From Leptospirales bacterium (lineage in GTDB: Bacteria > Spirochaetota > Leptospiria > Leptospirales > Leptonemataceae): 64,000 bases of DNA. Both the position numbers and the translations under genes were made by a program. This document shows, in pieces, positions 8,351 through 40,428 of this stretch; the stretch's first letter is position 1; each line of letters starts with the position of its first letter. The notes beneath the pieces are model-generated. The model ran no database searches, had not been told where the DNA came from, and saw only the letters and a list, made by a program, of their open reading frames with translations. The stretch spans positions 62,001 to 126,000 of the forward strand of contig JAIBBN010000004.1 of assembly GCA_019694655.1 (NCBI GenBank). The letters are read 5' to 3'.

Positions 8351-9907
8351 ATGGCGCGCTGGTTGGCCATACCGCTGGCGCTGATGATGGCGGGATTCTT
8401 CGCCCTGATGAGCCAGGCGATCATTAGCATCAAGCTGGCTGATCTACGCATCCAGGTAGCGCGCGGCCGACTTTTCAACTACGAACTTTCTTCGGAGGTG
8501 CTCAAGGAGCGCTTCAAATCGCTTACCGCCGGCGAGTCGGATTTTCGCTCCGAACTGCAAAAGAACGTCATGGAGTCGGCGATTATGAACGCCGCCAATC
8601 CCGAGGAGCTATCGCTGACGCCGGTGCAGCTGGCCGGTCTCGCCGCGGTCAACGCAGTTCGCATGGCTTCGCTCAAACCATTCTTGCGTCTGAGTCAGGA
8701 CCAGGAGCAACTGGCTCTGGTAAAACTGGCATTTCTCTTTGAACGCAATCGACGCTTTGACGCGGCCGCCGAGAAGTACCAATCGGTGATTCCGGATCTG
8801 GCCGGATCGGCCCCGGACCTGCACGGTTTCTCGCTGCTTCACGTAGGCTACTGTCTGGCAGTATCGGGAAAGCGCGCCGAGGCGCGTACGGCGCTGGAAA
8901 GAGTGCGCCGCGATCATCCTGGGACACATTTTGCCGAAACCGCCGCTGTTTTGTTGCGCTTGCTCGAGGAGAATGAGCGACGCGCTTCGGAAATTGAAGG
9001 TCGGGAACTGTCTCCTTTGGAGAAAGCGCGCGCCTTTTTCGCCGCTCGCCTTTACGACCAGGCGGCTGGCGCCTTTGAAGCTCTGCGTCCGCTTTCGCCA
9101 ATGGATGAGTATCGTTTTCGTCGTTCGCAGGAAGAAACCGGGAAGGTGCAGCCGGCGATCCAGGGCTATCGCGCTATCATTCAGGAAAATCGCGATCCGC
9201 AGGCGGTGCGAGAGGCCAACCGTCGCTTGTTGCTGATTGGCCACTTTTATGGAGGCGACCGCGAAACTCGGCAATTCGCCGAGAATACTGCGCGCCAGAT
9301 TGGCGATACAGCCGTCGTCAGCGAAGTGCAGAGCGCGGCGGCGGAGCAACGCAGTGCGGTCGTGTTGCAAGAAATCTATCAATCAAACAACCCAGATCTG
9401 GGCGCGCTACGCAACGAAGCCGCCGAGCAAATTCAGGATGCTCGTGAGCAGGCGGCTGCCGCCGAGGTTCAAGAGCCATCGCCGCCAGATCTGAATGGCT
9501 ACCTGGCGCTGCGCGATCCGCCTAATCCGCCAGGCTTTGATCTTGATCTGACTGGCGGCCTGCAATCGATGGCCGCGATTCGCGAACCGCCGCCAGTATC
9601 CTTGACTCCGGCCATTGCGGTGCGCACGCGCGACGGCCGCCTGCTGCTTGGCGAAGCGATCCGCTTCGAAAATGGCCGTGCAGTCTTCCAGGCCGATTTT
9701 TCTACTCAGGCGCCCGCATCGGAGTTTTCCGTCGTCCAATGTAGCGACGAGCAGGGCGACCTCTCCGTGCTCTTGCAGGATGGCCGGCGCCTGAGAATCA
9801 AGCGGCTTGAATTTTCTACTGCTGGCGTACGCTTGATGGGCGGCGCGACGGAGGATGAATTGCTGGAGCTTTCCGCTTTGCGCGAGGTGCGAGCTTCTCT
9901 GCCGTAG
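8351..9907 (+). CDS. Membrane-anchored TPR-like protein with C-terminal small beta domains
   Basis: The 518-residue product starts directly after the phosphatase stop. An N-terminal membrane segment (about 5-26) is followed by a long helical region with tetratricopeptide-like pairs, such as LALVKLAFLFERNRRFDAAA and FSLLHVGYCLAVSGKRAEAR. After a Pro-rich linker, the last ~97 residues look like two copies of a short beta domain (about 422-465 and 471-513) with the pattern (R/L)-D-G-R-x-x-x-x-x-x. The same kind of domain occurs in the next gene and in both FecR proteins downstream. No enzymatic motif is visible. A structural or scaffold role in the envelope is likely but not shown. Confidence 0.7.
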   Translation: MARWLAIPLALMMAGFFALMSQAIISIKLADLRIQVARGRLFNYELSSEVLKERFKSLTAGESDFRSELQKNVMESAIMNAANPEELSLTPVQLAGLAAVNAVRMASLKPFLRLSQDQEQLALVKLAFLFERNRRFDAAAEKYQSVIPDLAGSAPDLHGFSLLHVGYCLAVSGKRAEARTALERVRRDHPGTHFAETAAVLLRLLEENERRASEIEGRELSPLEKARAFFAARLYDQAAGAFEALRPLSPMDEYRFRRSQEETGKVQPAIQGYRAIIQENRDPQAVREANRRLLLIGHFYGGDRETRQFAENTARQIGDTAVVSEVQSAAAEQRSAVVLQEIYQSNNPDLGALRNEAAEQIQDAREQAAAAEVQEPSPPDLNGYLALRDPPNPPGFDLDLTGGLQSMAAIREPPPVSLTPAIAVRTRDGRLLLGEAIRFENGRAVFQADFSTQAPASEFSVVQCSDEQGDLSVLLQDGRRLRIKRLEFSTAGVRLMGGATEDELLELSALREVRASLP

Positions 9908-16488: not shown

Positions 16489-16556
16489 GGGGCCTCTCAG
16501 ACAATGAGGAGTGAAAGATGAATGGACTTCTAGTTGAAGTTAAGGAGAGAAAACCG

Positions 16557-17687
16557 ATGAGAATGCGACTGAAATCAGTAGCCTTCGCCGGCCTGATTCT
16601 CTCCCTGGCCGTGGGCGCGGCGGCGTTGAATTGCGGTAAGAACGATTCGCAGACTGCCGAGCGCTCCATGATTATTGTTTTCGCCAGCGGCGAAGCGGTA
16701 GTTGTCAGGGGACAGAATGAGATGCAGGCGAAAGTTGGCATGGTGGTGAATGAAAATGACACCATCAAAACGACCAACGGCACCGTAGACCTGCAGACCC
16801 GGAGCGGAAGTGCAGTTCGAATCAAGAACTTCACCACTGTGACGATTGCGAAGCTCTACGGCGAAGGAAGCGCCGACACTCGCCTGAGCATGCAGCATGG
16901 CAGCCTGATGGCCTCCGTGAAACGCACCTCCGGCAGCGAGAACTTCAGCGTTACTACGCCGACGGCAATCGCCGGTGTGCGCGGAACAACCTTCACCGTT
17001 GATGCGGTAGAGGGCGAGTCGCCGCGCGTGCGCGTTCTTGATGGCCGTGTGGCAGTATCCCCGCGCATTGCTGCGCTGGAAAATCTGTCACAGGACCAGA
17101 TCAATGGCGACCAGAACCTGCGCAATATGCAACAGATTGCACAGCAGCATGAGGTTGTCGTAGAGGACAACAGCGAAGCGACGCTGGACCCGCGCGTCAA
17201 TCAAGGCGTCCTGGCTGCGAACGAGCGTCTGGAAAGCGCGGAAGCCGGTCAGTTGAATACTGCCGCGCCGGCCGCTAACCAGCAATTGCAGGCAGCCCTG
17301 CAAGTTCAGGCTGCGGTGCATGTTGAGCAGGCGCCGGTTAGCGCTGATGAGATGGCCGAGCGCGCAACGCTGATCACGGTGGATTCTGAAATCGTAGGCC
17401 GACTGGCCTCCGGCGACCAATCCGCTGTGGAAGATCTGCGTCGCGACCGTGACGAGAAGCAAGAAGTCGTGCTCAATCAGATTGAGCAGCAAGCTTCTCA
17501 GACGCAGCTGAACAATGAGCAGGAAATCCGTCAGCACTACAACCGACTGGAGACCCTGAACCTCAAAGACGGAACCCAGCTGACCGGAGCGGTCATTGCT
17601 CAGACCGGCGCGGTTCTCGTAGTGCATACGCCCAATGGCGTAAAGCGCGTGAACACCTCGCAAGTTGAGTCGATTACCTATCCGTGA
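16557..17687 (+). CDS. FecR-domain lipoprotein
   Basis: The 376-residue protein starts with a signal peptide and a probable lipidation site at Cys 26 (GAAALNC). It contains a FecR domain (VTTPTAIAGVRGTTFTVDA then VRVLDGRVAVSP), a long Gln/Asn/Glu-rich helical stretch (about 180-320), and the same C-terminal beta domain as its neighbour (331-376, LKDGTQLTGAVIAQTG...). ATG 16557 lies 7 bases after AAGGAGAG. A second in-frame ATG at 16518 also follows a GAGGAG motif and would add 13 charged residues before the signal, which is less likely. A strong terminator follows 23 bases after the stop. Confidence 0.85.
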   Translation: MRMRLKSVAFAGLILSLAVGAAALNCGKNDSQTAERSMIIVFASGEAVVVRGQNEMQAKVGMVVNENDTIKTTNGTVDLQTRSGSAVRIKNFTTVTIAKLYGEGSADTRLSMQHGSLMASVKRTSGSENFSVTTPTAIAGVRGTTFTVDAVEGESPRVRVLDGRVAVSPRIAALENLSQDQINGDQNLRNMQQIAQQHEVVVEDNSEATLDPRVNQGVLAANERLESAEAGQLNTAAPAANQQLQAALQVQAAVHVEQAPVSADEMAERATLITVDSEIVGRLASGDQSAVEDLRRDRDEKQEVVLNQIEQQASQTQLNNEQEIRQHYNRLETLNLKDGTQLTGAVIAQTGAVLVVHTPNGVKRVNTSQVESITYP

Positions 17688-17742: not shown

Positions 17743-17842
17743 GTCTTCGAGCTCCGGGCGGCCGTCTGAATTGCAGTCAGCGGGGGGATCTGCCTGCGGA
17801 AACGATTGCTAAGCGCTGGCCTGGCGGCTATTCTGGGATTGC

Positions 17843-18043
17843 ATGGATCAGGCCGCACTCAATGCCTTGCTACGCCCGCGAATGGTCTGCATCTGCCGGC
17901 GTGTATCCGAAGAACGGATTCGCCAGGTGGTCGAAGCGGGCGCCTCGACCTTTGAACGCGTTCAGGAATTGACCGATTGCTCCACGAATTGCGGGACCTG
18001 TGAGCTCCGTGTTCGGGAGCTGATTGAGAAATTTCGCGGCTGA
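17843..18043 (+). CDS. bfd: Bacterioferritin-associated ferredoxin-like [2Fe-2S] protein
   Basis: The 66-residue protein matches the BFD-like [2Fe-2S] family. The four ligands are in the expected C-x-C...C-x2-C pattern: Cys 16 and 18 in MVCICRRVSEERI and Cys 50 and 53 in TNCGTC. An extra Cys lies at 46. Bfd reduces the haem of bacterioferritin to release stored iron. No bacterioferritin gene lies in the window; the next genes are exbB and exbD, which also suits an iron theme. BFD-like domains also occur in other redox enzymes, so the iron-release role is inferred. Confidence 0.85.
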   Translation: MDQAALNALLRPRMVCICRRVSEERIRQVVEAGASTFERVQELTDCSTNCGTCELRVRELIEKFRG

Positions 18044-18084
18044 AATCGGTTGCGAGCAACGCCCTGGCTGGCGCTCTAGCCGCG

Positions 18085-18738
18085 ATGGCCGAATTTTTTT
18101 CCTGGTCGGGGCTGATCTCTGCGGGCGGCCCGGCCCTTATCGTCTTACTTCTGTGCTCTCTGGTATCGCTGATCGTCATTGTGGAGCGAGCCGTCTATTT
18201 TAATGCTCGGAAGGCGGATCCGGCGGAGGTAGCGCGCGAAGCCCTGCATCGGCTGGATAGCGGGGTCAGTGCGGCATCGCTTTCCGAGGATCCAGCGCTG
18301 CGTCGTCATCCTCTTGGTTATGTGCTGGCCGAGTGTCTGGCCGCGCCCCATCCGGCAACCGATCCTGGCGGCTACGAAGAAGTGCGCAGTCGTGCGATTG
18401 CGGAGCGATTACCGGAGATGGAGCGTTACCTGGGCATCGAAGCAACCCTGGGCACCGTCAGCCCCTATATTGGACTGCTTGGCACCGTGCTTGGAATCAT
18501 CCGCGCATTCTTGAGTCTGGGCGCCGGCGCTGGCGGCGAAACCGCAGGAATGAATCAGCTCAACGCGGGCATCGCCGAGGCCTTGATTGCCACAGCAGCC
18601 GGCCTCTTTGTTGCAATACCGGCAACCATCGCTTACAACTACTTTCGCAAGCGCGTAAGTGATATGGTTCTGCAGATGGAAATTGCGGCCAGTCGATTGA
18701 AAAGCGGACTTGCTTCACGCGCTGCGGCGCGTTCCTGA
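18085..18738 (+). CDS. exbB: MotA/TolQ/ExbB proton-channel family protein
   Basis: The 217-residue protein has three transmembrane helices: one near the N-terminus (about 16-36) and a pair in the C-terminal half (GTVSPYIGLLGTVLGIIRAF and GIAEALIATAAGLFVAIPAT), the signature of ExbB/TolQ proteins. With its ExbD partner, encoded 15 bases downstream, it would form a proton-driven motor in the inner membrane. Whether it powers a TonB system (ExbB) or a Tol-type system (TolQ) cannot be told from sequence; no tonB, tolA or tolB gene is in the window. Confidence 0.92.
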   Translation: MAEFFSWSGLISAGGPALIVLLLCSLVSLIVIVERAVYFNARKADPAEVAREALHRLDSGVSAASLSEDPALRRHPLGYVLAECLAAPHPATDPGGYEEVRSRAIAERLPEMERYLGIEATLGTVSPYIGLLGTVLGIIRAFLSLGAGAGGETAGMNQLNAGIAEALIATAAGLFVAIPATIAYNYFRKRVSDMVLQMEIAASRLKSGLASRAAARS

Positions 18739-18753
18739 GGATTGCAAAGGGCT

Positions 18754-19164
18754 ATGGTACGTTATCGCGAGAGATTGCAGGGCGATGCTCTCTTCAGTGG
18801 GATCAATATCGTTCCATTTACTGATGTTGTGTTGGTGTTGCTGATCATCTTCATGATTGCGGCGCCGGGATTGGTTTCCTCGGGACTGAATATCAATTTG
18901 CCAGGCGCTTCACAAACGGACCCGCGGCCAGCGCAACGAATCACAATTGGCGTGGACCGTGGCGGCGCCCTCTACCTGGAGGGCAAGGCGCTGTCGCTGG
19001 AAGCATTGCGTAAGACGGTTCGCGAACGGATTGCTGCGGCGCCGGAAACTGCCGTTGCCTTGCATGCTGACCGCGACGCCGACTATGGAAAGGTTGTCGA
19101 ACTGCTGGACCTGGCGCGCGCCGCAGGCGCTCGAAAGATCTATGTCGGCGCTGTCCGGCAGTAG
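18754..19164 (+). CDS. exbD: ExbD/TolR family biopolymer transport protein
   Basis: The 136-residue protein has the short cytoplasmic N-terminus, a single transmembrane helix containing the conserved Asp in NIVPFTDVVLVLLIIFMI, and a periplasmic C-terminal domain (ALHADRDADYGKVVELLD). The Asp is the proton-carrying residue in the family. ATG 18754 follows AAAGGG; an upstream TTG at 18742 is less likely. The 3' end overlaps the next open frame by 23 bases. Confidence 0.92.
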   Translation: MVRYRERLQGDALFSGINIVPFTDVVLVLLIIFMIAAPGLVSSGLNINLPGASQTDPRPAQRITIGVDRGGALYLEGKALSLEALRKTVRERIAAAPETAVALHADRDADYGKVVELLDLARAAGARKIYVGAVRQ

Positions 19165-20539
19165 GCGGCCCGCGGCCGCTGGCTGGCGCCAGAGCGCAGC
19201 CGACTGGCGATTGCAGCTCAGTCTGACTATTCTGCTGACGCCCTTACTCTCTGGATTCTTATTGTACGTGCTGGCAGGCGGCAGCGGCGCCTTTTCCTGG
19301 AAGGTGCTGGCCCTGGGCGGCTTGATCGAGTTTTTGCTGGACCTGTTGCTATCGCGCTGGCGCCGACCGGGCGTCGTAGGCCGGGCGCAATGGCGCTACG
19401 CCTTGCGTATTGTCGTTGGCTTGCCGCTGACGATCTACCTCGTTGCCGCCTATCGCTATCCAGCCCTGGCCTTGCTGCGTTTTGCGCCGGCTCTTGCCCT
19501 GGTAATGGACCTCTCTGCTGTCTCGCGCTGCCTCTGGTATGCGACCCTATTCTCGCTGGGGCTTGTCGCATATCGTCTGCTGGAATCGCAAACATTGCCC
19601 GGTGAACGGGATATTGTCACGTTGCTTGGGTTTTGTGCTATTGCAATTCTTGCCCTGGGCGCCCGTCTGCGCATCGCTCAGCTGGTCGGGCGATGGAGCG
19701 CCGCACGGCTGGTCGGCGCTCGCACGCAGCTGCGCCATGATCAGCTGAAGCAACGATTGCGTTTGTACCTGCGCACTGAATTTCCGGCGGCGACGGCGGA
19801 ACGCTTGCTGGAGCGACCGACGGCAACAGCGGAACAGGGGCGATACATCTGTCTGGCATTCTACTGTGCCGGAATTCAGGAGAGCTTATCTGCTCTGCCG
19901 GAGGGCGAGCTGAGCGATCTCGATCGCGAATACCGGCAGTTCTGTCAACAAGTGCGCGAATGGCTGCAGGCCGGCGGTTTTTCCTATCAACTTCGCGGCG
20001 TTCGCGGCTATGCGTGGCGTTTGCTTGATGGCGAAGCGGCCGAAGTTTCGTGGGGAATGGTCGAGCGACGAGCGCTGCTGGAATTGCTATTTATTGCGAT
20101 GCGCACCCGCGACTTTGCAACTCGCTGCCGCCTGGCGCGAGAGAGCAAAGGCGTGCGCGGGTGGTATCTTCGCCTGGCGCTGGCTGCAGGTCCGGGCGTC
20201 CAATTGCATCCCCTGGCCGACGGAATTGCTGTACAATTGCTGAGCCCTGCAATCGGCGAACTTGATCTACGATTGCAACAGGAAGGAGCCTTTCGTGCGG
20301 CGAACTATTGGAGAGATGAACGTAAAGAAAGCATGTTCGATGTACTCCTGGTCCACCCTGAGCTTGCGGCGATCTGCGCGCCCTATTTTCTGGAATCTAG
20401 TTCTCGCTATGAGCAGGGCTGGTTTGTTCCGGGAACTATCAAATCCAGCTATGGAAATGCGGAGCGACCCTCCGAACCCGCCGATGATTTTTTTGAGCGT
20501 CCGGACTGGCTGCCATCGCCGGCTGACGGGCGCAGCTAA
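19142..20539 (+). CDS. Membrane protein of unknown function
   Basis: The 465-residue protein starts inside the exbD 3' end. About five or six transmembrane segments fill residues 20-195 (for example LTILLTPLLSGFLLYVL and DIVTLLGFCAIAILALGA). A soluble C-terminal half follows, with LRHDQLKQRLRLYLRTEFPA and YICLAFYCAGIQESLSALP. The order (membrane sensor, helical linker, then a strand-like ICLAF segment) recalls class III nucleotide cyclases, but the metal-binding Asp residues are absent, so at best it would be a degenerate relative. I cannot assign a function. It ends in a possible terminator before metX. Confidence 0.65.
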   Translation: MSALSGSRRPAAAGWRQSAADWRLQLSLTILLTPLLSGFLLYVLAGGSGAFSWKVLALGGLIEFLLDLLLSRWRRPGVVGRAQWRYALRIVVGLPLTIYLVAAYRYPALALLRFAPALALVMDLSAVSRCLWYATLFSLGLVAYRLLESQTLPGERDIVTLLGFCAIAILALGARLRIAQLVGRWSAARLVGARTQLRHDQLKQRLRLYLRTEFPAATAERLLERPTATAEQGRYICLAFYCAGIQESLSALPEGELSDLDREYRQFCQQVREWLQAGGFSYQLRGVRGYAWRLLDGEAAEVSWGMVERRALLELLFIAMRTRDFATRCRLARESKGVRGWYLRLALAAGPGVQLHPLADGIAVQLLSPAIGELDLRLQQEGAFRAANYWRDERKESMFDVLLVHPELAAICAPYFLESSSRYEQGWFVPGTIKSSYGNAERPSEPADDFFERPDWLPSPADGRS

Positions 20540-20554
20540 GCGGCCGGCTTTTTT
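20518..20554 (+). terminator. Possible Rho-independent terminator upstream of metX
   Basis: Two GCCGGC copies, which can pair with each other, flank a 19-base loop that includes the upstream stop codon, and are followed by TTTTTT. A shorter AAGC/GCTT hairpin is also possible. The T-tract supports termination but the stem is only 6 bp and the loop is long. Confidence 0.4.
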
Positions 20555-20616
20555 GGCTTGTATCTTGCGGCGCATATCGCGCATTGCTCGGTGCGTGGAG
20601 TCAGGCGTCGCCCGCG

Positions 20617-21801
20617 ATGCAGAGTCAGTCTGAAAGTATCGAAAGCAGGGATCTTCAGGATCAGAGCATCGCCGGCTATTCTTCGTCGCTGGGCTTTACC
20701 GAAATCCAGACCGCGCGCATTGTCAACTTTCGCACCTCCAGCGGATTTGAGTTTCCCGAAATCGAAATTGCTTACATGACGCTGGGCCAGCTGTCGCCGG
20801 CCCGCGACAACGTTGTCCTGATCTGTCACGCCCTCTCTGGCAGCGCACACGTGGCCGGCATGGATCGCGAAAGCGGTCGTCCCGGTTGGTGGGATTATCA
20901 TGTCGGACCAGGAAAAACCATAGATACAGATCGATTCTATGTGATCGCCACCAACGTTCTGGGCGGATGCAGCGGCAGTACCGGTCCAGCCTCCATTGAT
21001 CCGCGCACCGGCCAACGCTATGCGATGCGCTTTCCGCCGGTGACGATTCGCGATATGGTGCGCGCTCAAGCAGCCCTGATGGATCAACTGGGCATTGAAC
21101 GCGTGTTTGCCGCAATCGGCGGGTCGATGGGCGGTATGCAGGCTATGACCTGGACGGTGGACTATCCGGAGCGCATTGGCCATGCTGTGGTGATAGCTTC
21201 TTGCATGGCGCATTCGGCGATGCAGATTGCCTTTAACGAAGTCGGTCGGCAGGCGATTTTTACTGATCCGGATTGGCAGGGCGGCGCCTACTATGACGCC
21301 GCTCGTCCAGAGCATGGCCTTGCAGTGGCGCGGATGGTCGGCCACGTAACTTACCTTTCCGAATACTCCATGCACACCAAATTCGGACGCCGCTTGCAGC
21401 GTCCGGCTACGCCTGAAGATCTCTTCCCGGCCTTTTTTTCCGTGGAAAGTTACCTGCACCACCAGGGAGAAAGCTTTGTGCGCCGTTTTGATCCAAACAG
21501 CTACCTCTACATCACCAAGGCCCTGGATATGTTCGATATCCTGGAGGGTCAGGCGCCGGCGGCTGTATTTACCGGGGGCGCAGCCGAATTCCTTGTTGTT
21601 TCCTTTGAATCGGATTGGCTCTATCCCCCTTCGCAATCGCGTGAAATGGTGCGCGCACTAAAACGTTCCAATCGTTCCGCCAGCTACGTCAATTTGAGCA
21701 CGCCCTATGGCCACGATTCCTTTCTAATTGAGAATCCGGCCTTCAACCGGATTGTGTCGAACTATCTGCAACAAAATTACTCCAGGCAACCCGGTCGCTG
21801 A
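20617..21801 (+). CDS. metX: Homoserine O-acetyltransferase MetX
   Basis: MetX acylates homoserine in methionine synthesis. The 394-residue alpha/beta-hydrolase protein has the nucleophile elbow GGSMGGMQA, the LICHALSGSAHVAG oxyanion region, the catalytic Asp in SFESDWLYP and the His in YGHDSFL. The GWWDYHVGPGKTIDTDRF stretch is typical of MetX. ATG 20617 is chosen; the upstream TTG at 20584 would add poorly conserved residues. metW follows 11 bases after its stop, the usual metXW pair. Acetyl versus succinyl specificity cannot be read with certainty. The sulfhydrylase gene (metY/metZ) is not nearby. Confidence 0.95.
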   Translation: MQSQSESIESRDLQDQSIAGYSSSLGFTEIQTARIVNFRTSSGFEFPEIEIAYMTLGQLSPARDNVVLICHALSGSAHVAGMDRESGRPGWWDYHVGPGKTIDTDRFYVIATNVLGGCSGSTGPASIDPRTGQRYAMRFPPVTIRDMVRAQAALMDQLGIERVFAAIGGSMGGMQAMTWTVDYPERIGHAVVIASCMAHSAMQIAFNEVGRQAIFTDPDWQGGAYYDAARPEHGLAVARMVGHVTYLSEYSMHTKFGRRLQRPATPEDLFPAFFSVESYLHHQGESFVRRFDPNSYLYITKALDMFDILEGQAPAAVFTGGAAEFLVVSFESDWLYPPSQSREMVRALKRSNRSASYVNLSTPYGHDSFLIENPAFNRIVSNYLQQNYSRQPGR

Positions 21802-33025: not shown

Positions 33026-34123
33026 ATGAAGATTGGCAAACAACTGCGATGTACTTTGACCGTAGCAGCCGCGCTCCTGGCAAGCGCCTGCAGCACGACA
33101 ACGATCCAGACCGGCGGCGCACAGTACGCTGGCCAGAGCTATGCCGATTCAGAGCGCAGTCCGGGCGATCCTGAGTCGCGATTTTTCAACGAACTCAGCG
33201 ATCAAGATGCGGCCTTTGCCGGCAACCCGCAGCTGGCCGCTGCAGATTGCAATTGCCAGCAGCGTGCGCCGGACGGCGCGGAGCGCAGCCTTGCGGAAAG
33301 GCCGGCAGATAATACGGATAGCTCGCGGAGCGCAGCGTCAGTCGAGCAGCATCCCGACACAACGGCAGCCAACAGCGAAGTTCAGGGCGGCCAGGATTCC
33401 TTCTTTTCTCAGACCACCGGCGCCGTTTCGGGGGGCGCGGGCGCGCTTCCTGCCGCTTCCGCTGGCGATGCGCCGCAGTATGGCGACTATTCGCAAACCG
33501 GAGTGGCTTCTTGGTACGGGCGCGACTTTGATGGAAAGCCAACTGCCAGCGGCGAACTCTTTGACAGTCGTAAACTAACCGCGGCGCATCGAAGCATACC
33601 CCTGGGCAGCATCGTACTGGTGCGCAACCTATCGAACAACAAGGAAGTCCTGGTGACGGTCAACGATCGCGGCCCCTTCGTCGAGGGGCGCGTTCTGGAT
33701 TTGAGCGAATACGGAGCGGAGCTGCTTGGCTACAAGGAGCAGGGTCTGGCGCGCGTTGGCATTCGTGTCGTCCGCGTCGGTCAGGGGCAAACACGCAGCG
33801 ACGGCGCGACCCACGCCTTTTTTGGCGCCGGACAGGAAGCGACGCCGCCTTCCGCCCAGGAACTGCATGCCGCCGAGGTGCGCGACGAAATGGCCATGGC
33901 GCGCTTCTATTCGGTTCAGGTAGGGCTATTTGCCGATCTGCGCAATGCCCGCAATATGGAGCGCTTTTTGCAGAGCTATGGGCAGCCGATTCAGGTGCTG
34001 CGTCGCGGCGAACAATATGTCGTAAAAGTGGGGCAGTTTCGCGAACGAGAGCAGGCTGAGCAGCTCAAGGGGCAGCTGGGCGCCGAGGGCTACAGCGCCT
34101 TTATCAGCGGGCCGATCCAGTAG
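33026..34123 (+). CDS. rlpA: RlpA-like septal-ring lipoprotein with SPOR domain
   Basis: The 365-residue lipoprotein (signal ending LLASAC, Cys 22) has a low-complexity Gln/Ser/Ala region, a double-psi beta-barrel (about 155-245) with GVASWYGRDFDGKPTASGE and VNDRGPFVEGRVLDLSEYGA, and a C-terminal SPOR domain (about 292-365). RlpA family members cut or bind peptidoglycan strands that lack stem peptides at the division site. The catalytic Asp of the DRGP motif and the expected His in AAHRSIPLG are present, so it may be active. It is followed by a terminator. Confidence 0.9.
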   Translation: MKIGKQLRCTLTVAAALLASACSTTTIQTGGAQYAGQSYADSERSPGDPESRFFNELSDQDAAFAGNPQLAAADCNCQQRAPDGAERSLAERPADNTDSSRSAASVEQHPDTTAANSEVQGGQDSFFSQTTGAVSGGAGALPAASAGDAPQYGDYSQTGVASWYGRDFDGKPTASGELFDSRKLTAAHRSIPLGSIVLVRNLSNNKEVLVTVNDRGPFVEGRVLDLSEYGAELLGYKEQGLARVGIRVVRVGQGQTRSDGATHAFFGAGQEATPPSAQELHAAEVRDEMAMARFYSVQVGLFADLRNARNMERFLQSYGQPIQVLRRGEQYVVKVGQFREREQAEQLKGQLGAEGYSAFISGPIQ

Positions 34124-34195: not shown

Positions 34196-34361
34196 CGATG
34201 CGCGGTCAAATGGCGCATTCTTCCGTCTGATTCAAAAAAACAATTGCGTCGTCAGTTTGTAAGGCGGCAATCAAGCGCAGCGCGGCTGCGTAAGTTTCTG
34301 GAAGGATCAGGGAAGGGGGCCCCGATTTTCCAGTGCAAATCATTTGTACAAGGCAGAGTTC

Positions 34362-36236
34362 ATGCGCGTTCCATTTGCACTCAAAATTGGCGGGGCCATG
34401 TCGATTCTGGCCCTGTTCATCAGCGGCGCCAGCGTCTTCTTCATCTATACTCAGGCCCGCGAGCTGACGCTCACATTGATTGGTTCCCGGCTGAAGGACC
34501 TTGGCGGCGCCGGCGTATATTTGTTCACGCCTGAAGATCGACGTCAGCTGAAGCTGCTGCGCGATGAGATCTATGCCCAGGGGCGCTATGCCGAGCTGGG
34601 TCAGCAGATCGAGAAGTTGGGCGAAGAGGACAAACTGCCAGTACTGGACCAGGCGCGGCAGGATAGTCTGATGGCCAGTGCAGGTTTTCAGCACATTGTT
34701 CAGCTGCTGCGCCAGGTACGTCAGGGATCAGATCGTCACCTTCGACCCTACGGCGAGCTGCCCATCCGCGAGGAAATCCTGGCCCAGGCTGGCCGCAGCA
34801 ATCGCAAGGCGCCCTCTGTCGCCTACGCCTACATCTACGTGCCGGCGCCAGGCGAACTTGGCAAAAAGTACATCATCTATGTTGCAGACGGAGACTATCT
34901 GCCCTATGACGCCAACCACGACGGCGATTTTGAAGATGAAGCCGACTACGAAGGCAATCCGACCGGCAATCTGGTCCTGCGCCCAACGGCGGAGATGCAG
35001 CAGGCCTACGACAATCGGCAACCGGTAGCCGGCCGCGAGTGGGACACGGACGCATGGGGTACATGGCTATCCGGCTACGTCCCGATTCTTGATGAAGATG
35101 GCTCAGTCATCGCCGTGCTGGGCATGGACTACGATGTGCGCAGCGAGGCCAATAAGGTCGCCTTTATCCGTAATATGAGCATCGGCGTCGTTGTCGTCGC
35201 CCTGCTGCTGGCAGTGGCTCTTTCCATGCTTCTGGCCCGCTGGATCACCCGTCCGGTCAACGCGCTGGCCTCGGGCGCCGAACGCGTAGCGCAACGCGAT
35301 TTTTCGACGCAAGTCGTTGTCTCCTCGAGCGATGAACTTGGCGTGCTGGCGGGCGCCTTTAACAATATGGTCGGCGAGATTCGTGAGTATTCGCAAAACA
35401 TGGAGGCCTTGAATAGCGCCTTTGAACGCTTTGTGCCCAAGGAATTCCTGCAGCAGATTGGACAGGAAAACGTAGTGGGCGTGCGCCTGGGCGATCAGGT
35501 GCAGCGCGAGATGACGATTCTCTTTTCCGATATCCGCAGCTTTACTACTCTGTCAGAGGCAATGACGCCGAAAGAGAACTTTGATTTTCTCAATGGATAC
35601 CTTGGCCGTGTAAGCCCGCTGATTCGCAGCAATCATGGTTTTATTGATAAGTATATCGGCGACGCAATTATGGCGCTCTTTCCGCGCCGCGTCGATGATG
35701 CTGTTGAAAATGCCATCCAGATGCTGGCACAGGTAGCGGACTACAATGCCAGGCGAGCAGAGCAGGGACAGGCGGCTATCCGCATTGGCGTCGGCCTACA
35801 TACCGGGAACCTGATGCTGGGTACGATTGGCGAAGAGCGCCGCATGGAGGGTACTGTCATTTCCGACGCTGTCAATCTGGCCTCGCGCCTGGAAGGGCTG
35901 ACCAAGAATTTTGGGGCCAGCATATTGATTTCGGAAAGCAGTTTGCAGAAGCTCAACAATCCGGCCGGCGTACTTTCGCGCTGCCTGGGCAAGGTGCGAG
36001 TCAAAGGCAAAACCGAGCCAGTGCTGGTCTATGAGATTTACAATGGCGACAGCGCCGAGCAAATTGATCTCAAAAATGCGGCGCTGGGTCCATTTTCCGA
36101 GGCGCTGGCCTTGTTTCAGCGTGGAAAGCTGGGCGACGCCGGACTGGTCTTCCAGGAAATACTGGGCAAGAATCCCGCCGACCGGGCGGCGGCCGCTTAC
36201 CTGCAACGCTGCCAGCGGCGCGCTGTACTTTCCTGA
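34362..36236 (+). CDS. Membrane adenylate cyclase with sensor and HAMP domains
   Basis: The 624-residue protein has an N-terminal membrane helix (about 8-28), an extracytoplasmic Cache-like sensor domain, a second helix (about 273-293) and a HAMP domain, then a class III cyclase domain. Metal-binding Asp are at 390 (FSDIRSF) and 434 (YIGDAI). The purine-selecting pair Lys 430 and Asp 502 fit ATP as substrate, and Asn 505 and Arg 509 in DAVNLASRL fit catalysis. The sensor carries an EF-hand-like DANHDGD loop (183-189). The C-terminal ~50 residues resemble a TPR unit. ATG 34362 follows AAGG. The amine dehydrogenase cluster starts 73 bases downstream. Confidence 0.93.
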   Translation: MRVPFALKIGGAMSILALFISGASVFFIYTQARELTLTLIGSRLKDLGGAGVYLFTPEDRRQLKLLRDEIYAQGRYAELGQQIEKLGEEDKLPVLDQARQDSLMASAGFQHIVQLLRQVRQGSDRHLRPYGELPIREEILAQAGRSNRKAPSVAYAYIYVPAPGELGKKYIIYVADGDYLPYDANHDGDFEDEADYEGNPTGNLVLRPTAEMQQAYDNRQPVAGREWDTDAWGTWLSGYVPILDEDGSVIAVLGMDYDVRSEANKVAFIRNMSIGVVVVALLLAVALSMLLARWITRPVNALASGAERVAQRDFSTQVVVSSSDELGVLAGAFNNMVGEIREYSQNMEALNSAFERFVPKEFLQQIGQENVVGVRLGDQVQREMTILFSDIRSFTTLSEAMTPKENFDFLNGYLGRVSPLIRSNHGFIDKYIGDAIMALFPRRVDDAVENAIQMLAQVADYNARRAEQGQAAIRIGVGLHTGNLMLGTIGEERRMEGTVISDAVNLASRLEGLTKNFGASILISESSLQKLNNPAGVLSRCLGKVRVKGKTEPVLVYEIYNGDSAEQIDLKNAALGPFSEALALFQRGKLGDAGLVFQEILGKNPADRAAAAYLQRCQRRAVLS

Positions 36237-36309: not shown

Positions 36310-37458
36310 ATGAATTGTAAGCGCGGCCGCGCGCCTTTTCTTACGCTATTTTTGCTTGCTGCGGCCTGCAGCGGAGAGCCTGCAGCGCCCGCCTTTGCTG
36401 AGGATTCGGTGCGTGTGATCGATGTGGCTGCTGAAAATCGCGCCTACGTCACCGACCCGCTCTGGATTGCGCCAGCCGGTCAAATTTTTGCCGTGGACAT
36501 TGCGCAGCAAAACTTCCTTGGCATGATCGACACCGGTTACATGCCCGCCTTTGCTATTGCACCGGATCATTCGTCGCTCTATGTTGCGGAGACTTTCTTT
36601 TCCCGCGGTTCGCGCGGCGAACAGACGGATGTACTGACGGTTTACGATGCTCGAACGCTGCTTCCGGGCGACGAGATCAAATTGCCTCCGGGGCGCTTTC
36701 TTACCGCCGGCAAGAAGGAGCGCCTGACGATCACGCCGGACGGCCGGACCTTGCTTTTGTTCCATTTGACCACAGATCAGTCGGTGACGGCAATCGATGT
36801 ACGCGGGCGTCGAGTATCCGGACAGACAGATACGCATGGCTGCACCCTGACCTATCCGGGAAAGAACAATCATTTCGCTATGATCTGCACCGATGGCAGC
36901 ATGCTTTCAGTGCATGTGAATGACGGCGATTTTGAACGCGTCCATACGCGCAAGTTCTTCGATCCAGATCGCGATCCGTTGATGGACCAGGCAGCTTTTG
37001 ATCGCGCGGCTTCCACTGTTTATTTTGTTTCTTACGATGGCGTGATCTACGCCGCCACAATTGGCGACGAGAGCATTGATTTCCCTGCGCAGTGGACGGC
37101 TATCAGTGCTGCAGATCGCGCCCAGGGTTGGCGAGCGGGAGGCGCTCAGATGCTGGCCGTTTCCGGCGCAATCAATCGGCTCTACCTGCTGGTGCACCGC
37201 GGCGGTCGATTCACACACAAGGAGGCAGGGACCGAAGTCTGGATCTACGACCTTGCACAACGCAAGCGATTGCAGCGACTGACCTTGCCGCAGCCAGTAG
37301 ACAGTATCGCTATTTCGGCCGGCGCCGCTCCGCGATTGCTGGCGCTGAGTTCCGACGAAGCCGCGCTTCATATCTATGACGCCCGTACATTGCGTCCGCT
37401 GGGCGCCATGGAGGAAATGGGCTACGGTCCATCCTTGATTATGGTGCACGGAGACTGA
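36310..37458 (+). CDS. mauB: TTQ-dependent amine dehydrogenase heavy (beta-propeller) chain, MauB/AauB
   Basis: The 382-residue protein is the seven-bladed propeller subunit of methylamine or aromatic amine dehydrogenase. Typical segments are NFLGMIDTGYMP, AETFFSRGSRGEQTDVLTVY, LTITPDGRTLLLF, HGCTLTYPG, CTDGSML, AQGWRAGGAQMLAVS, RLYLLVHRGGRFTHKEAGTE and GYGPSLIM. Uniquely for the family as I know it, the N-terminus reads as a lipoprotein signal (LTLFLLAAACSGEP, Cys 20) rather than a cleavable Sec signal. Family knowledge: the heavy chain holds the TTQ-bearing light chain in an alpha2beta2 complex in the periplasm. It is the first gene of the B-E-D-A set. Confidence 0.93.
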   Translation: MNCKRGRAPFLTLFLLAAACSGEPAAPAFAEDSVRVIDVAAENRAYVTDPLWIAPAGQIFAVDIAQQNFLGMIDTGYMPAFAIAPDHSSLYVAETFFSRGSRGEQTDVLTVYDARTLLPGDEIKLPPGRFLTAGKKERLTITPDGRTLLLFHLTTDQSVTAIDVRGRRVSGQTDTHGCTLTYPGKNNHFAMICTDGSMLSVHVNDGDFERVHTRKFFDPDRDPLMDQAAFDRAASTVYFVSYDGVIYAATIGDESIDFPAQWTAISAADRAQGWRAGGAQMLAVSGAINRLYLLVHRGGRFTHKEAGTEVWIYDLAQRKRLQRLTLPQPVDSIAISAGAAPRLLALSSDEAALHIYDARTLRPLGAMEEMGYGPSLIMVHGD

Positions 37459-37462
37459 TTCT

Positions 37463-38026
37463 ATGCCGGCATCCATTGCAGCCTTCGCCATCTGCTTGCA
37501 TGCGGCGGTTTTTTGGGCCAGCGCGTGGAGCAAGGTCCGCCGTCCGCGCGAATTCCGCCTGGCCGTGGAGGCTTATGGCTTGCTGCCGCCAGCGCTGGCG
37601 CCTGCGCTTTCGGTGCTGGTCATTGGCGGCGAGATTGTTGCCGCTGGCAATTTGACGCTTTCAGCAATGCTGGCGCTCAGCGCCGCGCCGCCCGAGGGGA
37701 TGCTGCCCCTTTTGTACTATCTGGGCGCAGCGACCGGCGGCCTGCTGCTATTGATTTTCACTCTGTCCATTGGCTTCAACCTCTGGCGCGGCAGAAACTT
37801 TATCGATTGCGGCTGCTATCCCGGGGCGCAACGCGATCCCATTGGCGCCTTTCACATTGTCCGCAATTGCCTGCTGCTTATGTTGCTGGCGCCCGTCGCC
37901 CTCGCGCCCATCTCGCTTTCGATTCTGGATCTGGTGCAGGGACTGGCCGGGGCGCTGGTCAGCATACTATTGTATCTGGCAGCGATGCAACTGCGGCGCA
38001 ACTGGCGCGCACTGGAGCTTGCATGA
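37463..38026 (+). CDS. mauE: Amine dehydrogenase maturation protein MauE
   Basis: The 187-residue membrane protein has about four to five helices and the MauE signature DCGC in RNFIDCGCYPGAQRDP, plus the early FWASAWSKVRRPREF segment. MauE and MauD are needed to fold the disulfide-rich light chain. It starts 4 bases after the mauB stop, and its stop overlaps the mauD start (ATGA). A second open frame covering the same DNA in another phase is a shadow of this gene and mauD. Confidence 0.93.
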   Translation: MPASIAAFAICLHAAVFWASAWSKVRRPREFRLAVEAYGLLPPALAPALSVLVIGGEIVAAGNLTLSAMLALSAAPPEGMLPLLYYLGAATGGLLLLIFTLSIGFNLWRGRNFIDCGCYPGAQRDPIGAFHIVRNCLLLMLLAPVALAPISLSILDLVQGLAGALVSILLYLAAMQLRRNWRALELA

Positions 38027-38652
38027 TCATTGCCCTTTTGATTTCGCAGGCGCTGCTCTGGATTTTGCTTGGCGTCCTTGCCTTTACGGCGCTGGCGCTG
38101 GCCCGTCAGATTGGCGTACTTCACGAGCGAATTGCTCCCGCTGGCGCTCTATCAACGCGGGGCGGCCCGCAAGGCGGTCAGCCAGCGCCGGCTATCAGCG
38201 GGCAGCATCCTGACGGCGCGGCAGTAGAGTGGCAGTGGCCTCTACGCGCCGGTCAGAGTGAGCTCTTGCTCTTTGTCTCGCCGGAGTGTCCGCTGTGCAA
38301 GGAGATCCTTCCGGTAGCCAAACGGCTGGCCGCTCAGGAGCGCAATCTGCGCCTCCTGCTGGTTGGCGAAGGGCGCCTTGAAGAATACCGAGATCTGGCC
38401 CGACTGTTCAAGATCGATGAGGCTTCCGTCTGTCTGTCGAACATGGCGGCGACGCAATACCAGGTTGGCAAGCTGCCGCATGCCGTGTTGATCGACGGCG
38501 AGGGGCGCTTCGTTGCCGGCGGTCTGAGTAATACGCGCGAACACCTCGATAGCCTGCTGAATGCGCGCGACCATGGTTCGCCGTCGATTCAGGAGTATTT
38601 GCAGAAGCATAACGGCCAGCGCGAACTGAGCGCAGGGGGATTGGATCGATGA
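38023..38652 (+). CDS. mauD: Amine dehydrogenase accessory thioredoxin-like protein MauD
   Basis: The 209-residue protein has an N-terminal membrane anchor (about 3-27) and a periplasmic thioredoxin fold with the CPLC active site in FVSPECPLCKEILPV and the cis-Pro segment KLPHAVLIDGEG. MauD proteins use a C-P-x-C site to form or shuffle the six disulfides of the light chain. It overlaps mauE and mauA by ATGA at both ends, so the four genes are translationally coupled. The true start is ATG 38023; the longer frame upstream lies in mauE. Confidence 0.93.
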   Translation: MIIALLISQALLWILLGVLAFTALALARQIGVLHERIAPAGALSTRGGPQGGQPAPAISGQHPDGAAVEWQWPLRAGQSELLLFVSPECPLCKEILPVAKRLAAQERNLRLLLVGEGRLEEYRDLARLFKIDEASVCLSNMAATQYQVGKLPHAVLIDGEGRFVAGGLSNTREHLDSLLNARDHGSPSIQEYLQKHNGQRELSAGGLDR

Positions 38653-39167
38653 GCTCCACAGCACTGGATCGACTTCTGGAGAAGCTGACGCGACAGAGCG
38701 CTCGACGCAGCTCCCGTCGCAGTTTTCTGGGCGGATTGGGCGCCTGGCTTACCGGTGCGGCTGTTCTGCCCTTGCTACCTTTTGATCGGCGCGGCTATAC
38801 TGAGGCGCGGGCGGAGGGAGGCGCGGCGCAGGATGACAGCGATTGCTCCTACTGGCGCTACTGCTCCATCGACGGCAATCTCTGCACCTGCTGCGGCGGA
38901 GGGACCGGCGATTGTCCGCCAGGCACAAGCAAGTCTCCCACGGCATGGATTGGCAGCTGCTTGAATCCGCAAGACCAGCAACTCTATTTGATTCATTATC
39001 ATGACTGCTGTGGACGAAGCAACTGTGACCGTTGTTTCTGTCACAAGACCGAGGGCGAGATGCCGATCTACCGTCAAGGATTGAACAGCGAAATCATCTG
39101 GTGCTTTGGCGCTCGGAACATGGTCTACAACTGTACAGGGGCCGTAGTGCTTGGCAAGGCTGGCTGA
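38649..39167 (+). CDS. mauA: TTQ amine dehydrogenase light (catalytic) chain, MauA/AauA
   Basis: The 172-residue protein is the quinone-bearing subunit that oxidises primary amines in the periplasm. A twin-arginine signal (SSRRSFLGG, with a hydrophobic stretch to about residue 44) precedes a cysteine-rich core: CSYWRYCSIDGNLCTCCGGG, CPPGT, DCCGRSNCDRCFC and the final YNCTG. The two tryptophans that cross-link to form TTQ align with W100 (SPTAWIGSC) and W151 (IIWCFG), and the catalytic Asp with D119 (HYHDCC). The Tat signal agrees with export of a folded precursor. Substrate (methylamine or an aromatic amine) cannot be read from sequence. Confidence 0.95.
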   Translation: MSSTALDRLLEKLTRQSARRSSRRSFLGGLGAWLTGAAVLPLLPFDRRGYTEARAEGGAAQDDSDCSYWRYCSIDGNLCTCCGGGTGDCPPGTSKSPTAWIGSCLNPQDQQLYLIHYHDCCGRSNCDRCFCHKTEGEMPIYRQGLNSEIIWCFGARNMVYNCTGAVVLGKAG

Positions 39168-39717
39168 ACACCGGGGGCAGGTCATAAGCCGGGCTGTCCT
39201 TGCCGCAGCCTTTCGCTGGACGCTCAGGCGAAGGCTGCAGCTCCTCTTGCCTGCCCTCTGCCTCTTGCACTGCAGCCCCGACCCGGCGGATCGCTTGCTG
39301 GCCGTCTGCCATGATTGCAGCAAGATTGAAGCAGAATCCTTTGAAGCCTTGAGCCCGGCTGCGGCCGACTATTCGCGTCAGTGTCGAGGCTGCCATCGTT
39401 CCGATGGATTTGGCGCGCCTCCATTTTCGCCGCCGCTCACCGGCGCGATGGGACTCTTCCTGCATGTGCCCGGCGGGCGCGAATATCTTGTTCAGGTACC
39501 GGGCGTTGCTCATGCGCCAGTAGACAGTAAACGACTGGCGGCCCTCTTGAACTATGCTCTGGAGCGTTACAGCAGGCGCGAGATTCCTCCGGATTTTAAG
39601 CCCTATGAGGCGGAGGAGGTGGCCCGGCTGCGGGCCAGTCCGCTGCAGGATGTCAGGCCAGTCCGTCGACAGTTGATTGTAGCCATGGAACGGCGTGGAT
39701 TGCTTGAAGCGCGCTGA
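39151..39717 (+). CDS. Mono-haem cytochrome c, exported, linked to the amine dehydrogenase
   Basis: The 188-residue product is read from TTG 39151, inside the light-chain 3' end, 10 bases after AGGGG. No ATG or GTG precedes the signal region. It has a positively charged, hydrophobic export signal ending near LLHC (Cys 41, perhaps lipidated). A CHDC pair lacking the His follows, then one haem-binding CRGCH at 78-82. The downstream GAMGLFLHVPGG segment may supply the Met axial ligand. The segment REYLVQVPGVAHAPVD...LAALLNYAL resembles small cytochromes found beside amine dehydrogenases. It could accept electrons from TTQ or take part in its making. A single haem site rules out a MauG-type di-haem enzyme. 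Confidence 0.8.
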   Translation: MARLAEHRGQVISRAVLAAAFRWTLRRRLQLLLPALCLLHCSPDPADRLLAVCHDCSKIEAESFEALSPAAADYSRQCRGCHRSDGFGAPPFSPPLTGAMGLFLHVPGGREYLVQVPGVAHAPVDSKRLAALLNYALERYSRREIPPDFKPYEAEEVARLRASPLQDVRPVRRQLIVAMERRGLLEAR

Positions 39718-39792: not shown

Positions 39793-40428
39793 ATGCTCGC
39801 TGCTGAACGCGCCGCCTGGGAATTGCACAACGAGAAGAACAAGGCAAATGTCCGCTGGCTTCTGTTGCTTTTGATTGGCGGGTATTTGCTGTATCTCCTG
39901 CGCACCAATCAGGCCGAGGAGGTCGGCGCCAATCGCCTCTTCAACGGATACTTCATCGCCGAACTGATTGGCGGAATGAGCCTGGTAAACGCGCTGGTCG
40001 GAATCTTACTGACCCGTGTGCGCCGCGGCCGCATGGCAATGCCCGCCTGGTTGAAGTACTTCACGATGATCGTCGATCTTAGCGCCGTCAGCATTGTTCT
40101 GGCGCCTACCGGCGGAAGCAACAGCATGTTCTTCGTCGTCTACTTTGTGATTCTGGTTTCCAATAGCTTGCGCTATGGTATGCGTTTGGCGCTGCTCGGT
40201 CTGTTTGTCTTCAACGCCATGTACTTTGGGATACTGCTCTACCAGTACTATCCGGAATTGCACCCGCCGCGCTTCCACGCCGAGCTGCTCAAGATTTCCG
40301 GCGTCTGGATCGTCGGCCTATATACGGGCTACGTAGCCCGTCGCTTCTCGATACTTCAGGGCGAAGTGCACCGCTACGAACAACTGACTGCACGCTTGAT
40401 GGTGCCGCGCCGCGGCGATGAGGGCTGA
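39793..40428 (+). CDS. Membrane protein of unknown function, six-helix sensor-like
   Basis: The 211-residue protein has about six transmembrane helices (for example VRWLLLLLIGGYLLYLL, FIAELIGGMSLVNALVGILL and SLRYGMRLALLGLFVFNAMY) and a short cytoplasmic tail. The layout resembles the membrane module of some histidine kinases and diguanylate cyclases, but no output domain follows; the gene stops after LMVPRRGDEG. It could be a split or lost-output sensor, or an independent membrane protein. It lies 75 bases after the cytochrome gene on the same strand. Confidence 0.65.
   Translation: MLAAERAAWELHNEKNKANVRWLLLLLIGGYLLYLLRTNQAEEVGANRLFNGYFIAELIGGMSLVNALVGILLTRVRRGRMAMPAWLKYFTMIVDLSAVSIVLAPTGGSNSMFFVVYFVILVSNSLRYGMRLALLGLFVFNAMYFGILLYQYYPELHPPRFHAELLKISGVWIVGLYTGYVARRFSILQGEVHRYEQLTARLMVPRRGDEG

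Follow-up and report, generated by a model that had tools for sequence, protein, structure and literature searches.

A 64,000-nucleotide stretch of DNA from a Leptospirales bacterium (hereafter the window) carries a gene cluster for an amine dehydrogenase with a predicted tryptophan tryptophylquinone (TTQ) cofactor. The window covers positions 62001-126000 of a contig of 375 kb; the assembly comprises 33 contigs and 3.9 Mb. Five open and intact frames at 36310-39717 encode MauB, MauE, MauD, MauA and a c-type cytochrome (Table 1). We hold with considerable confidence that this is a horizontally acquired TTQ amine dehydrogenase cluster of a type that lacks MauG, located on a spirochaete chromosome of the Leptospirales type and probably serving periplasmic amine oxidation.

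The gene cluster and its light chain

The original prediction, made from the sequence alone, had placed the genes in the order B-E-D-A with ATGA overlaps at the E/D and D/A junctions and a cytochrome c in the cluster. The frames, the overlaps (38023-38026 and 38649-38652) and the Pfam and TIGR matches all agree with this description. The cytochrome frame overlaps the 3' end of mauA by 17 nt. The light chain had also been credited with a twin-arginine translocation (Tat) signal, which is present as the motif SRRSFLGG. MauB has a possible lipobox at Cys20. Among solved structures, MauA matched light chains of methylamine dehydrogenase (MADH; 3c75, 6e-49; also 2bbk) and of aromatic amine dehydrogenase (AADH; 2agl, 2e-35), and MauB matched MADH (4y5r, E 1.7e-57) better than AADH (2h3x, E 3e-38).

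The residues expected of a TTQ enzyme are in place. W100, W151, D119, D75 and Y160 of MauA align with W57, W108, D76, D32 and Y119 of the Paracoccus light chain. The proposal that W100 and W151 are the TTQ pair thus stands, as these residues fall on the TTQ positions of light chains of known structure. Both tryptophans and D119 (the catalytic Asp, D76 in MADH and D128 in AADH) are invariant in all 93 aligned sequences.

The mature light chain of MADH contains 12 cysteines, compared with 14 in that of the window. In the 93-row alignment, Cys82 and Cys126 of MauA are both present in 85 rows and both absent in eight, and never occur singly; the AADH light chain of Alcaligenes faecalis also has this cysteine pair. 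This covariation fits a seventh disulfide in MauA, and most TTQ light chains in the alignment probably have seven disulfides, compared with six in MADH. The C82-C126 bond is proposed from covariation and not from the predicted structure, because MauA was modelled poorly (mean predicted local distance difference test score, pLDDT, 66). A fold search with this model nevertheless gave light chains of AADH and MADH as its only significant matches.

Table 1. Features of the window discussed in the text (positions are those of the window)
Feature	Position	Strand	Evidence
MauB, heavy chain (beta-propeller), 382 aa	36310-37458	+	PF06433 E 6e-63
MauE, membrane protein for light-chain disulfide formation	37463-38026	+	PF07291 E 6e-17
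MauD, membrane-anchored thioredoxin-like protein, CPLC motif	38023-38652	+	TIGR02661 E 1.4e-41
MauA, light chain, 172 aa, Tat signal, TTQ pair W100/W151, D75, D119, 14 Cys	38649-39167	+	PF02975 E 1.4e-46
Codon of Trp100 (TTQ partner 1, = Trp57 of MADH)	38946-38948	+	alignment
Codon of Trp151 (TTQ partner 2, = Trp108 of MADH)	39099-39101	+	alignment
Monohaem cytochrome c, c552-like, distal-Met loop deleted; start codon uncertain	39151-39717	+	profile match to T. thermophilus c552 E 2e-23
CRGCH haem-binding motif of the operon cytochrome	39382-39396	+	sequence
Left backbone gene, RlpA/MPL36-like lipoprotein (Leptospira MPL36 relative)	33026-34123	+	NF047735 E 4e-73; syntenic in G105, G211
Adenylate/guanylate cyclase with HAMP, native-type, 73 nt upstream of mauB	34344-36236	+	PF00211, PF00672
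Right backbone gene, membrane protein that adjoins rlpA in relatives	39793-40428	+	synteny in G105, G211
Relative of Leptospira lipoprotein LipL45	16518-17687		E 2e-56

Cofactor maturation and the operon cytochrome

The TTQ of MADH is completed by MauG. The cluster had been called complete, which holds for a MauG-less type but not for an MADH cluster, as none of mauF, C, J, G, M and N was found in its flanks. MauG was absent from the vicinity of 83 out of 93 clusters compared across relatives, a biased sample made up of the 80 closest to the query and of plasmid records. MauG-less clusters are therefore the majority of those recovered, yet we found no answer within the openly licensed literature to how TTQ forms in them.

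The genome encodes two proteins of the CCP_MauG family. We rejected them as MauG, because both are MbnH-type (379 and 354 bits; family cut-off 363) and one adjoins an MbnP. Neither is linked to the mau cluster. MbnH modifies a tryptophan of MbnP. The protein with the MbnP neighbour (G000:C1, ~170000-173500; copper-binding MbnP, TIGR04052, E 9e-62) is a hint that MbnH/MbnP pairs also occur outside methanotrophs. The second (G000:C8, ~17800-21300) adjoins a protein of the Leptospira family LIC_12337, possibly an unrecognised substrate partner of the enzyme.

CCP_MauG proteins are also common in relatives that lack a mau cluster, and all four MADH genomes tested contain one. Among 25 genomes with MauG-less clusters, 10 have no protein of this family, although these genomes were reached through their loci and their completeness is not established. 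If TTQ is formed in them, it therefore does not require the CCP_MauG family. A search for conserved genes in the cluster neighbourhoods found no further maturation gene: most loci share only the A, B, E, D and cytochrome families. The next group mixes TonB receptors with aldehyde dehydrogenases, while antisense frames seem to make up some of the remaining large groups.

The cytochrome, mentioned only in passing by the original prediction, is indeed present and proved to be the most informative part of the cluster. It is a monohaem protein that matches Thermus thermophilus c552 in two blocks, the haem and C-terminal segments. Its haem-domain fold is predicted with high confidence, with c552 as the best structural match. 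Residues 50-70 of c552, among them the distal haem ligand Met69, have no counterpart in it. The distance from a conserved Arg to a conserved Asn is 23 residues, compared with 41 in c552. No conserved Met or His replaces the missing loop among the aligned loop-less cytochromes. We defined a class of clusters that have BEDA but no mauG and whose cytochrome spans 23-24 residues from this Arg to this Asn; the cluster in the window belongs to it.

In 78 of the 83 MauG-less clusters, the loop-less cytochrome gene follows closely after mauA. Of these clusters, 42 also encode a c552-like cytochrome that retains the Met loop and the other 36 do not; no MauG-less cluster has the Met-loop form only. The five exceptional MauG-less genomes all encode a loop-less cytochrome, with at least one copy each close to a mauA. 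None of the 10 MauG-bearing clusters has one beside it (Fisher p 4e-10, uncorrected for relatedness). Six out of seven MauG-bearing genomes lack it altogether; the seventh, Chthonobacter rhizosphaerae, combines an MADH cluster of the MauG type with a second cluster of the aau type. Its copy stands beside the latter, and the genome offers a good natural control. The loop-less cytochrome is absent from the four spirochaete relatives checked.

On the proposed mechanism, Tat would export MauA folded, MauE and MauD would set its disulfides, and MauA would assemble with the propeller MauB, with W100 and W151 becoming the TTQ cofactor. In the periplasm, the enzyme would then convert a primary amine into an aldehyde with release of ammonia; methylamine is probably not the substrate. 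Electrons would pass via c-type cytochromes and could be taken up by a haem-copper oxidase, for which the genome has three subunit I genes. The loop-less cytochrome would either help make TTQ in place of MauG or act as an obligate electron acceptor.

That the cytochrome is only an acceptor, replacing amicyanin or azurin, is a reading we place a little short of even. TTQ would then be made otherwise, here perhaps by an MbnH-type di-haem enzyme acting in trans. Two such proteins are available, no cupredoxin (PF00127) was found in the genome, and in 36 clusters the loop-less protein is the sole cytochrome. Against this, the class as a whole is independent of the CCP_MauG family, as the 10 genomes without it indicate, and homologues of that family are common where no mau cluster exists. 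One of the two proteins here has its own neighbour in MbnP. In addition, 42 clusters encode a Met-loop cytochrome that could itself serve as acceptor.

The alternative, that the loop-less cytochrome takes part in TTQ maturation, is one we advance tentatively, as a serious but minority possibility, and we give the two readings roughly the same weight. The loss of the sixth-ligand loop may leave the haem site open, and MauG has a high-spin haem, so that the two sites may be alike. The loop-less form persists in clusters that also encode a normal c552-like acceptor, and it is exchanged for MauG. All three points lean towards maturation. Several considerations weigh against this role, the case for which is built from co-occurrence and the missing ligand loop in the sequences. 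Co-occurrence alone does not decide the matter, because an electron acceptor would also co-occur with its enzyme. MADH swapped the cytochrome for amicyanin, and the acceptor reading therefore explains the exchange too. The 36 clusters with no other cytochrome point the same way, and the MbnH-type proteins of this genome, relatives of tryptophan oxidisers, could act in trans. The remaining probability goes to a dual role of the cytochrome or to something else.

In its general form, the maturation proposal says that all amine dehydrogenases without MauG owe their TTQ to a c552-like cytochrome of this loop-less kind with an open haem, and here too we would speak of a conjecture worth pursuing rather than of an expectation. 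If true, the MauG-less route would be ancestral and more widespread, and the MauG route would be derived and confined to the MADH clade; 'ancestral' is meant here by parsimony only, because the root of the tree was not inferred. In that case the five genes of the spirochaete would amount to a portable TTQ module of minimal size. The cluster resembles a natural minimal set in that five genes have crossed phyla into a host without MauG or detected cupredoxins, and it singles out one small cytochrome as a candidate for the TTQ-making factor.

Relationship to known TTQ enzymes

The original prediction had called for a tree of MauA and MauB. In our maximum-likelihood tree of the two proteins, those of the window fall in a clade (support 100/100) with MADH proper, with Ferruginivarius, HR40, Marinimicrococcus and other unstudied clusters, and with clusters of acetic acid bacteria. 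An approximately unbiased (AU) test rejected a grouping with the AADH clade (p 0.000126) but did not reject either MADH (p 0.54) or the Ferruginivarius group (p 0.17) as its sister. Kinship with AADH is thus rejected. The branch of the window is long, which limits how exactly its sister group can be placed. This, together with scores below the NCBIfam equivalog cut-offs for MADH (MauB 215/454 bits, TIGR02658; MauA 191/197, TIGR02659; MauD 142/189), weighs against our overall reading. On sequence evidence, the enzyme is best described as neither canonical MADH nor AADH, but as a five-gene, MauG-less TTQ type.

The residue alpha-Phe55 governs substrate fit in MADH, and PDB entry 1mg3 is a mutant at this position. 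We placed its column via 1mg2, whose sequence departs from wild type at 'NDPAHF'. The window MauB has Ile53 in this column, and all 10 MauG-bearing rows have Phe. Because Ile replaces Phe, methylamine is a less likely substrate, and a longer-chain or arylalkyl amine would be likelier.

A methylamine dehydrogenase feeding C1 metabolism, as in methylotrophs, is therefore improbable, even though a sister position to MADH is allowed and MauB is closer to MADH than to AADH. The cluster shares with the mau clusters of Paracoccus denitrificans and Methylobacterium the B-E-D-A order, the TTQ residues, the catalytic Asp, the Tat-exported light chain and MauE/MauD. It differs in lacking MauF, amicyanin, MauJ, MauG, MauM and MauN, in its Ile at alpha-Phe55, in its sub-threshold equivalog scores and in the c-type cytochrome after mauA.

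An AADH of the A. faecalis type is just as doubtful. The solved A. faecalis enzyme (2agl) shares the extra cysteine pair with the window MauA, and plasmid aau clusters share the layout of BEDA followed by one or more c-type cytochromes without MauG. However, AADH forms the separate clade rejected by the AU test, MauB is only 25% identical to AADH, and most of the aau clusters seen add a Met-loop cytochrome.

The nearest relatives by tree path are uncharacterised MauG-less clusters from Ferruginivarius, HR40, Marinimicrococcus, Rhodocyclaceae and Modicisalibacter, most of which have B-E-D-A and the loop-less cytochrome. They differ from the window in having Pseudomonadota hosts (HR40 being titled only as a bacterium), in MauA sequences that are ~50-59% identical, and in that most have Pro in place of the Ile.

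Relatives show some variation in layout. For instance, in some of them (L027, L079, L082, L083, L016 and L017) mauB is followed directly by mauA, with no mauE or mauD between. A Sphaerotilus plasmid (L011) carries an apparent remnant, with partial mauD and mauA frames and cytochromes but no mauB. One genome has two convergent TTQ clusters (L040), and another (G423; L180, L181 and L182) has three cytochrome genes, each of which adjoins a separate mauA and mauB.

Host chromosome and horizontal gain

The cluster sits on the chromosome of the spirochaete itself, as had been assumed from its genomic background. The 375 kb contig carries Leptospira-type lipoproteins (Table 1), FlaA has four matches in the genome, and the order of flanking genes recurs in a relative without the cluster. 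In this relative (G105), metX, metW, glyoxalase, acyl-CoA dehydrogenase, hemH, rlpA and the membrane protein follow one another as in the window. Its site is empty: in the locus (L127), rlpA runs to 9128 and the membrane protein begins at 9163, which leaves a gap of 34 bp and no gene between. In a second relative (G211), the corresponding gap is ~100 bp. At this junction the window has 5.67 kb extra, consisting of the native-type cyclase and the mau cluster. We noticed no mobile-element genes or strong flanking repeats at the cluster edges, and the composition is not deviant.

Among the 393 genomes searched in the phylum one has the light chain, as does one among the 48 of the class; in either set it is the present genome. 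The rarity expected for spirochaetes is thus borne out, and from this single occurrence in the phylum we conclude that the cluster was horizontally gained. Donors were apparently proteobacteria: the nearest relatives recovered are from Pseudomonadota, and the 80 best relatives from named genomes bear proteobacterial titles, except for two contigs titled Bacterium HR40. Single-sequence scans of genome and viral contigs gave no matches. In the openly licensed literature we found no mention of methylamine dehydrogenase together with spirochaetes; outside Proteobacteria, mauAB is reported from metagenome-assembled genomes of Binatota (PMC8262859). With the cluster, a Leptospira relative gains a predicted capacity to oxidise amines in the periplasm.

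It is very unlikely that the cluster is a decaying import that has lost its function: its tree branch is long (1.1 changes per column), but all five frames are intact with tight overlaps, and the catalytic residues and conserved cysteines are kept. Proteobacterial contamination of a metagenome bin is more improbable still, despite the Pseudomonadota affinity of the nearest proteins and an assembly contamination estimate of 2.9%, given the length and lipoproteins of the contig, the flanking order kept in both relatives and the unremarkable composition.

The cyclase upstream of mauB is of a type with 56 matches in the genome, a pattern common to many genomes of the family, and it has matches in all 22 family genomes.

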